A stretch of 64,000 bases of DNA from assembly GCA_002779605.1 (NCBI GenBank), contig PEWE01000004.1, positions 1-64,000 on the forward strand, read 5' to 3'. The translations under genes and the position numbers were made by a program. Shown one piece after another: positions 13,662 to 17,131 of this stretch (positions are counted from its first letter, which is position 1; the number at the start of each line of letters is the position of its first letter). The notes under the pieces are model-generated. The model was not told where the DNA came from. It worked only from the letters and a program-made list of their open reading frames with translations, and ran no database searches. The DNA is from Zetaproteobacteria bacterium CG06_land_8_20_14_3_00_59_53 (lineage in GTDB: Bacteria > Pseudomonadota > Zetaproteobacteria > Mariprofundales > Mariprofundaceae).

Positions 13662-14527
13662 TCACCAGCCCCCTCGCGCGCAGGCGGCACAAACACACGG
13701 AAGCGCTTGCCGCTGACGCTGCTCACCGGCTCACCCTTGTCCGACATCACGATATGCCCTCCATCCGGCAATATCGCGGGGAGGGAAAGCCCTGCATCGC
13801 GCAACTGCTGTACATCTCTTGCATCATGAAAGCGCTGCGGCAATCCGGCAAGGCGCGTATCCAGCGTGCGCATTATCTGTTCGGTCAGGATGTCGGCACG
13901 CAAATGCTCCAACTGACTGCGGATATTGCTGTCCTGTTGCTCCTTTAAAAGCTGTTCGACAAAAAGCAGCGCGGTTTGCAGTTCGCCGGCACTGGCCTGC
14001 ATACGCAGCGCCAGGCTCATCACCAGCTGCGGTGCACCGTGAAGCCCGGCAGCCTGCGCCAATAAACGCCCGGATTCGGCTTTATCGTGATCGAACCAGT
14101 AGGCATTGAAACCGCGATAATAAGGCCAGCGCCAGTCTTGCGGGAAGGCCAGCATGGCTTTCTCAAGCAGGGGGCGACTGAGTAATGTGCTTCCCGTATT
14201 CCAGGGCAACACGGCACCGGCCATATAATATGCGTGTTCGGCTCGCGGATTGAGTTGAGCGATAGCCGCAAGCAATCCGCCCAGATAGCTGTAGTCGGCA
14301 TCGCGCACATGGGCGCCGAACCATGACAGGGTGCGTATCCAGAGGGTCTCGGCAAACAGATTGCGATAGCCAAGCGCCATGGCATCCAGCCACACCCCCT
14401 GCGGCAGATGCATCCGCGTCTCTTCCCCAGCAGCACGATTAGCCGTCAGATGCTTGTTCGCTGTTGTACTTGCGACCAGCAGAAGCAGCACAAGCAACGG
14501 CCCGAAAAGCCTAGAGACCGAGGTCAA
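13658..14527 (-). CDS. PilG-like membrane-anchored protein of the pilin/ABC cluster
   Basis: An approximately 289-residue protein with one N-terminal membrane segment (RLFGPLLVLLLLVAS) and a long helical periplasmic part that looks like degenerate TPR repeats (HAYYMAGAVLP, RWPYYRGFNAYWF, AESGRLLAQAAGL). The place between the oligosaccharyltransferase and the ABC ATPase matches pilG in the Myxococcus pilGHI set. The start is uncertain: I favour TTG 14527 because AAGGAG stands 6-7 nt before it, but ATG 14551 and the track start 14557 are possible. It ends in a 4-bp overlap with the ATPase gene. Confidence 0.65.
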   Translation of the reverse strand: MTSVSRLFGPLLVLLLLVASTTANKHLTANRAAGEETRMHLPQGVWLDAMALGYRNLFAETLWIRTLSWFGAHVRDADYSYLGGLLAAIAQLNPRAEHAYYMAGAVLPWNTGSTLLSRPLLEKAMLAFPQDWRWPYYRGFNAYWFDHDKAESGRLLAQAAGLHGAPQLVMSLALRMQASAGELQTALLFVEQLLKEQQDSNIRSQLEHLRADILTEQIMRTLDTRLAGLPQRFHDARDVQQLRDAGLSLPAILPDGGHIVMSDKGEPVSSVSGKRFRVFVPPAREGAGE

Positions 14528-16103
14528 TGGCTTCTCCTTCGGCATGCCCATGGGCAAGATGTTCCTTCAAATAAGGCGAAAGCCTGTGTTCCGGATAAGC
14601 GGCCATGAACAACGCCGACCAGCGCCGCTCGGCATAGGTATCATCTTTCAGGTGCGCCAGCAGAATCAGATAGCGCAGCGACAGTGTGCCCTGATGCATC
14701 ATCCAGTAACGGTAAATGAAATTCTCGCTGGCAACAATTCTGGCAGGCTCATGCTCCCAGACCATGCGCCCGATATACCATTGCAGTGCCGCACGCGAGG
14801 ACCACGGATTATCCACAGCTGCTCCTACATCGCGAGCAAAGGCAGCATCGTCGATGGATAGGTTCGCAGCATCTTCCGCCCGCCATTCGCGGGTGACGAA
14901 CAGCTGCCAGTTCCATATCACGAAGAGTGCCGGAATCATCAGTATGAGCAGACGGGACAACGAGAAACGGGGGCTTGGGCCTGACGAGACATTTACAGGC
15001 ACGAAAAGCGCAGCTGAATAAAGCGCCAGCAGTACAACAAAATAGCCCTGCATCATGCTCACGCTGAACATGCCGTGCAGCAGCATCATCGCGCTACCGA
15101 TACCTGCCTGCACACGACCCTCACAAAGATCTGTGCTGCGCGAATGCAGCAGACCGATAACCCGCCATGCGACAAACCCGATAAGGCCGATAATTGCCGC
15201 CCCGCCGAGCACACCCCATTCCATGAGGAATTGCAGTATCAGGTTATGTGCATTGGCATGCCCTCCAATCATCACCGAGGCCACTGCTGCGTACTCAGGA
15301 TGGGAACTTAGCAATACAGGGATGGCTTCCGTGCCATAAGACATCAGATTGCCCGCGCCTATACCCAGCCATGGATGTTCGAGGAACAATCTCCAGCACA
15401 TCTCCCAGACAAAGAAACGCCCCTGCATGCCGACCGAGGCCATGCGCTCTGTGAGGGTGGCTTCCAACCCGGTTATTTCAGGATACATGTGCCAGTAATG
15501 ACTGATCGCACCTGCCAGCAGCAGCACGCCGACCATTCTCAGGGCTGCACCAAGCCGGCTCGTCGATATCCACAGCAACATCGCAGCTCCGACCAATAGC
15601 ACCAGTGCGCTACCCCTGCTACTAGTGGCCAGCAGACCGGCGCAGGGCAGAAGGGATGCCAGCCACCACGGCCATGCCTTTGTCTCGCTCATCGCCCTCG
15701 CCCACAAAGGCATGCAGACCAGCACCAGAAACAGGCCCTGCATGTTCTGCTGGATATGCATGCCCGCAAAGGCTACCGGGAATGCCTGCCAGATGGGGAA
15801 TACCTCGAATCCGGAAAACAGCGGCAGATGGAACTGTTGCAGGACGGCGAACAGCACCGCGATGTTGCCGGTGATACCCAGCAGCAAGCTCCAGCTGTGA
15901 CTGCCGAGCAGCCTTCCGGCAGTCGAACCGCTCATCCGGTAAACGAGCCATGCTGAACAGACATACAGTGCCATCTGGAAGGTCCGCCACGGATTGCGCA
16001 AATCCCCGCCGGCTAACTGCACAGCTATCGGCAGTAGCAACAGCAGCAGAAACAACCATGCAAGTGGGGCAGAGTTCTGTGCGGCTCGGTCAGCCGAGCC
16101 CAT
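14511..16103 (-). CDS. PglL/TfpO-type O-oligosaccharyltransferase (O-antigen ligase family)
   Basis: The 530-residue product is a polytopic membrane protein with about 11-12 hydrophobic helices and the Wzy_C/PglL signature HAHNLILQFLMEWGVLGG at about residue 280, where the histidine and HNLxLQ pattern are characteristic of protein O-oligosaccharyltransferases. It ends in a soluble periplasmic domain. Two pilin genes lie directly upstream, so pilin glycosylation is the likely job: transfer of a lipid-linked glycan in the periplasm. An O-antigen ligase or polymerase role is the alternative. The frame stays open for 48 further codons upstream and encodes what looks like a missing first helix, but without ATG/GTG/TTG; see findings. 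Confidence 0.8.
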   Translation of the reverse strand: MGSADRAAQNSAPLAWLFLLLLLLPIAVQLAGGDLRNPWRTFQMALYVCSAWLVYRMSGSTAGRLLGSHSWSLLLGITGNIAVLFAVLQQFHLPLFSGFEVFPIWQAFPVAFAGMHIQQNMQGLFLVLVCMPLWARAMSETKAWPWWLASLLPCAGLLATSSRGSALVLLVGAAMLLWISTSRLGAALRMVGVLLLAGAISHYWHMYPEITGLEATLTERMASVGMQGRFFVWEMCWRLFLEHPWLGIGAGNLMSYGTEAIPVLLSSHPEYAAVASVMIGGHANAHNLILQFLMEWGVLGGAAIIGLIGFVAWRVIGLLHSRSTDLCEGRVQAGIGSAMMLLHGMFSVSMMQGYFVVLLALYSAALFVPVNVSSGPSPRFSLSRLLILMIPALFVIWNWQLFVTREWRAEDAANLSIDDAAFARDVGAAVDNPWSSRAALQWYIGRMVWEHEPARIVASENFIYRYWMMHQGTLSLRYLILLAHLKDDTYAERRWSALFMAAYPEHRLSPYLKEHLAHGHAEGEAIDLGL

Positions 16104-16243
16104 CCATGCCGCAGCGGCAAGCCCTACAGCGATAGCAAGCAGATGGATGGCAGAAAAATTGTCGATGATATTGGGCCAGAGAAGCGGCGAAAAAAAGAAA
16201 GCAGCCCAGAGAAGAAGTGTGACTCGCTGGACGATATGGCTGT

Positions 16244-16639
16244 TTATGGAAGCATCCCCACCGCAGTCTGATAGCTGATCGATTTGATTGCACCGGGATG
16301 GGTTCCCTCGATCAACAAGGAGCCGTCATCTGCCAGCGTACCGGTCAGCGTCACGCCCTTGGAGATGTGCAAATCCAGACCCGTACCCAGCGCATAAACA
16401 GTATGCCCGGTCACCGGCCCGAAGGCTTTGTATGCCTGATTCTCGGCGAAATAACCTTCCTCGATTGAAACGGCATTGCGCACATCACTGACCACCGAGT
16501 CTTCAAACGCCTTCTGGCGATATTGATAGGCGGCGGGAATGGCGATGGAGGCCAGAATGCCGATGATTGCCACCACGATCATCAATTCGATGAGCGTGAA
16601 GCCTCTTGCCGCATTCATATCAGCATGTTTGTGCTTCAT
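16244..16639 (-). CDS. Type IV pilin-like protein (second pilin)
   Basis: The product is a prepilin: a basic leader ending in NAARG, cleavage before FTLIELMIVVAIIGILASIAIP, and glutamate at position 5 of the mature protein. The mature part is about 118 residues with a disulfide-free C-terminal domain, unlike pilins with a C-terminal cysteine loop. I start at ATG 16639, because the track start is a TTG with no better support. It lies downstream of pilA behind a strong terminator, so it may be made at lower level, as for a minor pilin. Its TAA stop overlaps a possible ATA start of the oligosaccharyltransferase frame. Confidence 0.88.
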   Translation of the reverse strand: MKHKHADMNAARGFTLIELMIVVAIIGILASIAIPAAYQYRQKAFEDSVVSDVRNAVSIEEGYFAENQAYKAFGPVTGHTVYALGTGLDLHISKGVTLTGTLADDGSLLIEGTHPGAIKSISYQTAVGMLP

Positions 16640-16665
16640 GGCATTGGATCCCTGAGACAAAAATA

Positions 16666-16692
16666 AAGGGGCCCGGCAAAGCCGGGCCCCTT
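16666..16692 (-). terminator. Intrinsic terminator between the two pilin genes
   Basis: A perfect 12-bp stem AAGGGGCCCGGC / GCCGGGCCCCTT with a 3-nt loop is followed on the minus strand by TATTTTTG. It stands 10 bp after the pilA stop and before the second pilin, so it should end most pilA transcripts and let some read through. Confidence 0.85.
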
Positions 16693-16702
16693 GCTAAGGA
16701 CT

Positions 16703-17131
16703 TTAGAACAGCGCAGTTCCGGCAGTACCATCCGATGCTACGATACCACCATCAGACGAGCCGACCCACTTCTTGTCACCCTGCAGATGCTTGGTCACAG
16801 CCGTATAGGAGGTGGTGTCAGCGGACAGGGACTGTGCCTTCACACCCTTCGACAGCTTGGCACCGGGCAGGCTGGTGATGGTGTTGGTCGGATCAGTATC
16901 AGAACCAGTATCAGCGAAGTCGACATAGGACTCGGTGTCGGCAAACGCAGCTTCCTGGGAATTCATGATATTGCGCAGATCGGACTCGGCCGCACCGTTA
17001 AATGCACGAATGCGGTACTGGGAAAACTGCGGGATGGCGATGGCCGCCAGGATGCCGATAATGGCCACCACGATCATCAGCTCGATGAGCGTAAAGCCTT
17101 TTTCTTTGTTGTATTGAATTTTCGTCAACAT
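16703..17131 (-). CDS. pilA: Type IV major pilin
   Basis: The 142-residue prepilin has a short leader (MLTKIQYNKEKG), the class IVa cleavage site G/FTLIELMIVVAIIGILAAIAIP with Glu5, and a roughly 130-residue mature protein with a threonine/serine-rich C-terminal domain (for example DTGSDTDPTNT) that offers many sites for O-glycosylation. There are no cysteines in the mature part. AAGGAG lies a few bases before the ATG. It is the first gene of the pilin cluster and is followed by a strong terminator, the pattern expected for an abundant subunit. Assembly machinery (pilB, pilC, pilQ) is not in the window. Confidence 0.92.
   Translation of the reverse strand: MLTKIQYNKEKGFTLIELMIVVAIIGILAAIAIPQFSQYRIRAFNGAAESDLRNIMNSQEAAFADTESYVDFADTGSDTDPTNTITSLPGAKLSKGVKAQSLSADTTSYTAVTKHLQGDKKWVGSSDGGIVASDGTAGTALF

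Follow-up and report, generated by a model that had tools for sequence, protein, structure and literature searches.

A cluster of six genes was identified in the first 64,000 nucleotides of contig PEWE01000004.1 of Zetaproteobacteria bacterium CG06_land_8_20_14_3_00_59_53 (this whole stretch is referred to below as the window). All six lie on the minus strand and encode, in order, two pilins (pilin1 and pilin2), a PglL-type membrane glycosyltransferase with a Wzy_C domain, and proteins resembling PilG, PilH and PilI, of which the last two are an ATP-binding cassette (ABC) ATPase and an ABC permease. The cluster is probably an accessory cassette dedicated to its own pilin, in which the glycosyltransferase and a NosFY-like PilGHI machine perform parallel services for the same client. 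A preliminary description of this DNA had listed the same genes (two pilins, a Wzy_C protein, a helical protein, an ABC ATPase and a permease) on one strand, all of which were recovered by family scans and open reading frame (ORF) analysis. The co-localization of PilGHI, pilin and glycosyltransferase to which it drew attention is real and recurrent: rather than standing beside PilHI in this genome alone, the glycosyltransferase was linked to the cluster in many genomes by a neighbourhood survey. PilGHI travels with interchangeable glycosyltransferases, and with an attenuator-like hairpin, in several groups.

Distribution of PilGHI and its glycosyltransferase partners

A PilG profile gave matches in 63 of 78 Zetaproteobacteria genomes and, outside the class, in 2 of ~270 other sampled Pseudomonadota genomes (E <= 1e-15). 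A polytopic glycosyltransferase was found in ~30 of the 57 readable zetaproteobacterial PilGHI loci (13 + 2 + 15), a hand count of neighbourhoods in which some contigs end near the cluster. Thirteen genomes share the arrangement of the window (layout A: pilin, pilin, Wzy_C, PilG, PilH, PilI), which was also seen at a locus from a record titled Gammaproteobacteria (L058), additional to the 13. Mariprofundus sp. EBB-1 (L063) is a cultivable strain of type A. Two genomes belonging to a different family have a TMEM260-like protein (PF11028, 6.5e-15 and 4.4e-14) in the Wzy_C slot of layout A. TMEM260-like proteins are relatives of protein O-mannosyltransferases. Because of its position, and because enzymes of this protein O-mannosyltransferase-like type replace it in the slot, the Wzy_C enzyme is expected to glycosylate pilin. 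Layout C, in 15 genomes, runs pilin, PilH, PilI, PilG, an optional pilin and a distant Wzy_C protein at the far end.

No glycosyltransferase was found in the other 27 of the 57 loci. These comprise layout B (pilin-PilH-PilI-PilG, frequently joined by a further pilin), layout D (a very short pilin, PilI, PilG, PilH) and one locus, L095 of genome G107, whose arrangement pilin-pilin-PilG-PilH-PilI is that of type A but lacks PglL; the G107 genome (87% complete) gave no Wzy_C match at all. Two loci with PilI-like permeases but no PilG nearby (L071 and L072) were excluded.

Beyond the class, PilG was found in 127 of 146 Desulfuromonadia genomes. The usual partner there is a polytopic protein combining GT-C and tetratricopeptide repeat (TPR) regions (PMT_2 weak, TPR clear), encoded either 3' of PilH or in the interval from pilA-C to PilI. 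Genome-wide, 76 strong matches to this protein (E < 1e-100) were obtained in 69 Desulfuromonadia genomes, and a match lay within 4 kb of PilG in 65 of the 69 genomes (67 of the 76 matches), where chance would place ~0.3% per match. In other Desulfuromonadia, Wzy_C lies between pilA-C and PilH (L149 and L158). Two Geobacter-type genomes carry a gene for a decaprenyl-phosphate phosphoribosyltransferase directly after the GT-C/TPR gene, beside pilA/PilIGH (L163:7888-10523 and L145:3130-5767); the corresponding model, NF008978, is exceeded in L163 only (223 bits against a cut-off of 207). This arrangement suggests a pentofuranose donor for the GT-C enzyme at both loci, and the pair is a candidate pilin pentosylation module. 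The phylum to which genome G127 belongs is probably Myxococcota; of its 144 genomes, 129 also contained the PilG family. The order there is pilin, PilG, PilH, PilI, as in Myxococcus xanthus, with GT-C genes sometimes at either end; TMEM260 matches at L218 and L219 were left out of the counts.

In the window genome itself, four Wzy_C genes occur in 2.37 Mb, and the chance of finding one within ~2 kb of the cluster is ~1–2%. Since this probability is low and the linkage is repeated in many genomes, the neighbouring Wzy_C gene is not attributed to chance.

Three further observations were made during the survey. Geobacter-like very short pilins (61–78 aa) accompany PilI-PilG-PilH at L111:5499-5696, L129:5475-5660, L132:4991-5227 and L052 (G082), loci that span the Zetaproteobacteria and one other Pseudomonadota genome; at L111, L129 and L052 a secreted protein of ~160 aa is encoded 3' of the short pilin. 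Separate ORFs, adjacent or overlapping, encode the membrane part and the soluble C-terminal part of Wzy_C at L042:10051-11795, L043:101-1964 and L044:4200-5597 (two from genus g4 and one from family f3). A Desulfocapsa locus (L073:2766-7277) encodes an STT3-like oligosaccharyltransferase (PF02516, 5.2e-16) as well as a PMT_2-like protein next to minor pilins, close to a PilHIG cluster.

Proposed role of the cassette

Under the reading preferred here, pilin1 would be made in bulk, with a terminator, judged from a hairpin after its gene, letting a minority of transcripts reach pilin2, the glycosyltransferase and PilGHI. The Wzy_C enzyme would transfer a lipid-carried glycan onto the cassette's own pilin in the periplasm. 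PilHI, in the manner of NosFY, would spend cytoplasmic ATP to drive the membrane-anchored, TPR-bearing PilG, which would handle the cognate pilin during its exit or extraction from the inner membrane and pass it to the assembly machine; PilHI would not carry glycan. Gene order is a strong argument for a shared client and a weak one for glycan export by PilHI, which is disfavoured. Among the cargoes proposed for the transporter in the preliminary description, a role in pilus assembly fits best, and movement of a glycan or glycan carrier is not supported. The role of PilGHI has been a question since the M. xanthus mutants of 1998, and the survey points to one likely client, the cognate pilin.

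A further possibility, held tentatively, is that PilGHI is a widespread ABC-driven pilin-maturation line, in which PilG would dock the cassette's pilin and present it to any membrane glycosyltransferase that the cassette encodes and then to the assembly platform in an ATP-dependent manner. If true, PilGHI would represent mechanotransmission by an ABC machine with a filament subunit as its target, and cassette exchange would swap pilin, sugar and handler together.

Several points weigh against a pilin-dedicated cassette with these activities. The genomes counted are related and hence are not independent events. Prepilin insertion does not normally involve an ABC machine of its own, which leaves the contribution of PilGHI unexplained. 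Homology to M. xanthus PilGHI is argued from gene order, family and architecture, a search for a Myxococcus genome with the model NF041775 having given no match, and the resemblance to NosFY, offered as a works-like comparison only, is not proof of mechanical coupling. For the glycosyltransferase, neither PglL_A (PF15864) nor Wzy_C_2 (PF11846) was detected in the window protein at E <= 0.01, with a weak Wzy_C_2 match (0.0033) in the type-C relative L106. The window protein shares a Wzy_C core, an H-HN motif and a C-terminal soluble helical domain with both PglL/O-oligosaccharyltransferase (PDB 9rmk) and WaaL (PDB 7tpg). When Wzy_C profiles were compared with the PDB, one mixed from types A, C and D matched the oligosaccharyltransferase 9rmk (4.7e-22) and WaaL (9.8e-9); the type-A profile alone matched WaaL only (1.8e-8) and not 9rmk, and WaaL was also the top match of the AlphaFold model (4.3e-4). 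The window enzyme is assigned as a putative protein oligosaccharyltransferase from its context, its own clade profile matching WaaL only.

Four other explanations were weighed. One is a handover gated by glycosylation, in which PilGHI would check or extract the glycosylated pilin and the two activities would be sequential steps. Consistent with this, glycosyltransferase type tracks PilGHI clade (in one Desulfuromonadia/Nitrospirota clade, 24 of 25 rows have a GT-C/TPR gene), and PilG shares with the GT-C enzyme the possession of TPR domains; PilGHI without an adjoining glycosyltransferase is nevertheless common, as in the 27 zetaproteobacterial loci above, and this explanation is judged unlikely.

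Quite unlikely, too, is that PilHI acts as a flippase, supplying the adjoining enzyme with its lipid-linked glycan donor on the periplasmic side, although enzymes of the protein-glycosyltransferase type do co-localize with it in several groups. PilHI is not regarded as a donor flippase because several glycosyltransferase families with different expected lipid donors (Wzy_C, TMEM260-like and GT-C/TPR, the last with a phosphoribosyltransferase at L163 and L145) share one ABC machine, and because PilGHI often occurs without any glycosyltransferase, L095 being a case in which the type-A order persists. PilI is, moreover, closest to NosY rather than to a polysaccharide exporter, and the described three-component pentofuranose pathway flips its donor by means of a MATE-family protein (PMC11127046).

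The proposal that PilHI exports exopolysaccharide (EPS) derives from XapD (GSU1501), an ABC ATPase encoded five genes after pilA in Geobacter sulfurreducens, which has been termed an EPS exporter driven by ATP and is needed for growth on electrodes (PMC4974642, PMC5585712). The order in the Desulfuromonadia loci L135, L148 and L160 is pilA-N, pilA-C, GT-C/TPR, PilI, PilG, PilH, and by gene count and published locus numbers the PilH gene of a G. sulfurreducens cassette of this kind may be xapD, so far investigated for EPS export. The G. sulfurreducens PilA sequence did not locate that species among 48 genomes from the family of these relatives. Polysaccharide-type genes do abut PilI-PilG-PilH in relatives; none, however, was found among the cassette or the immediate neighbours scanned in the window, and L163 has a separate ABC permease/ATPase pair further downstream. 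In M. xanthus, the EPS loss of pilG/H/I mutants looks secondary to missing pili, because it is suppressed by a pilB allele (PMC3724824). EPS export by PilHI is accordingly considered very improbable. Least credible is that the Wzy_C gene encodes an O-antigen ligase or polymerase lying next to pilins by chance: the WaaL matches of the type-A profile and AlphaFold model speak for it, against which stand the repeated linkage, the TMEM260-like replacement in the same slot and the separation of pilin-linked Wzy_C proteins from other zetaproteobacterial ones, albeit with support of only 82/71.

Gene organization and the intergenic hairpin

The cassette is flanked by comM (17310-18830) and tsaD (plus strand, ending at 11939), and its features are collected in Table 1.

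Table 1. Features of the pilin cassette in the window, with supporting matches
Feature	Position	Strand	Evidence
pilin1, 142 aa, GFTLIE prepilin motif	16703-17131	-	Pfam N_methyl 4.9e-11
Terminator-like hairpin AAGGGGCCCGGCTTTGCCGGGCCCCTT + TATTTTT, pilin1/pilin2 interval	16666-16692	-	12 bp, 10 GC, -26.1 kcal/mol
pilin2, 138 aa from TTG, GFTLIE motif	16244-16660	-	Pfam N_methyl 4.5e-9
Wzy_C membrane glycosyltransferase, 578 aa if ATA start	14511-16247 (listed ORF 14511-16103)	-	PF04932 6.5e-17
PilG-like helical protein, single transmembrane segment	13658-14557	-	No Pfam match; AlphaFold, TPR matches
PilH-like ABC ATPase, 307 aa	12738-13661	-	PF00005 1e-26, over cut-off
PilI-like ABC-2 permease, 263 aa	11950-12741	-	PF12679 5.4e-8, over cut-off

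The Wzy_C reading frame is open well upstream of 16103, where it encodes a conserved first transmembrane segment (LLLWAAFFFSPLLWPNIIDNF...) that aligns with relatives; as read from the sequence, the listed ORF is mis-started and its N-terminus too short. No ATG, GTG or TTG occurs in this frame from 16247 to 16103, and translation probably starts, coupled to pilin2, at the ATA at 16247, which shares bases with the stop codon of pilin2 (ATAA). With this start the gap between pilin2 and PglL is essentially nil and, as the PglL and PilG genes overlap and the PilG/PilH and PilH/PilI pairs overlap by 4 nt each, the nearly gapless run described earlier from pilin2 onward holds. The sole real break in the cluster is the hairpin and T-run between pilin1 and pilin2.

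Because of this 12-bp hairpin and T-run, the genes of the cluster are probably not all expressed at the same level, and pilin1, with a strong terminator-like hairpin 3' of its gene like the major pilins of Pseudomonas aeruginosa cassettes, is the probable major pilin. Of 101 related loci, 46 had an equivalent hairpin right after the first pilin; one was found after PilG in 1 of 98, and in no shuffled sequence. In P. aeruginosa and in other bacteria, a hairpin placed like this in pilin-accessory cassettes has been described as an attenuator (PMC11841053), and that of the window is a putative attenuator.

Features of the cassette proteins

The Wzy_C protein contains the motif HANAHNLILQ and thereby the H-x-HN signature of PglL-type O-oligosaccharyltransferases; residues H286, N287, E295 and G297 are nearly or fully invariant. 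In a Wzy_C tree the type-A clade has support of 100/100, the pilin-linked types A, C and D each form one clade (100), and together they lie apart from other zetaproteobacterial Wzy_C proteins with the moderate support quoted above. NCBIfam holds no specific model for the Wzy_C protein, PilG or PilI.

The AlphaFold model of PilG (mean predicted local distance difference test score 90.4) has a single N-terminal transmembrane helix, a repeat domain built entirely of helices and, at the C-terminus, a short beta hairpin. Its best matches, by sequence profile and by fold, are TPR proteins, all of the fold matches falling short of E 0.001, and the basic N-terminus suggests that the TPR domain is periplasmic. 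PilG homologues adjoin PilH/PilI in several phyla. A likeness of the PilG C-terminus to the type II secretion pseudopilin GspG was weak (PF08334 at 0.0017, below cut-off, in one homologue; PDB 0.36–0.84) and was not used. NosY was the sole credible PDB match of a PilI profile (3.4e-9). The solved relatives of PilH include ABCA-type ATPases and NosF (9e-33), with the ABCA-type proteins outscoring NosF.

Cassette exchange at one chromosomal site

Layouts A, B and C all occur at the comM-tsaD site among Zetaproteobacteria genomes. In a PilI+PilG tree, obtained by a quick search with support from the Shimodaira–Hasegawa-like approximate likelihood ratio test only, layout A groups with sequences of the G127 phylum and Acidobacteriota (95) and not with the zetaproteobacterial layouts B, C and D. 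Since the three layouts share one site though the tree separates them, whole cassettes seem to have been exchanged there.

Comparison with known systems

In NosFY, the ABC machine of nitrous-oxide-reductase maturation, NosY is related to PilI and NosF to PilH; unlike NosFY, the partner here is the helical, TPR-type PilG and not the beta-helix protein NosD, and no Nos genes were found among the cassette proteins scanned. The Geobacter-type pair of GT-C/TPR protein and phosphoribosyltransferase resembles three-component pentofuranose systems (polyprenyl-phosphoribose synthase, MATE flippase and GT-C), but is tied to a pilin/PilGHI cluster and not to an O-antigen locus; the window lacks the pair.

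The pilA-pilG-pilH-pilI genes of M. xanthus (MXAN_5783-5780) form, as here, one operon in the order pilin, accessory protein, ABC ATPase, ABC permease, which supports the PilGHI-like identity first proposed; unlike that operon, the cassette has two insertions separating pilA from pilG, namely an additional pilin and the Wzy_C enzyme. The M. xanthus pilG/H/I genes sit in the pilA operon (PMC3546991); they have been described as indispensable for moving pilin across the inner membrane, and their mutants have neither pilins nor pili (PMC3724824).

The pilin-accessory cassettes of P. aeruginosa (group I with TfpO, group IV with TfpW) likewise consist of a pilin, a terminator and then accessory genes, and its pilin groups carry unrelated glycosyltransferases, as the cassettes here do; TfpW arabinosylates the P. 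aeruginosa pilin (PMC11841053), a parallel to the pentofuranose donor suggested for L163 and L145. Both features of such cassettes, a terminator right after the pilin and differing pilin/accessory sets at one site, were found here. The P. aeruginosa cassettes differ in carrying TfpX/Y/Z-type accessory proteins in place of an ABC machine.

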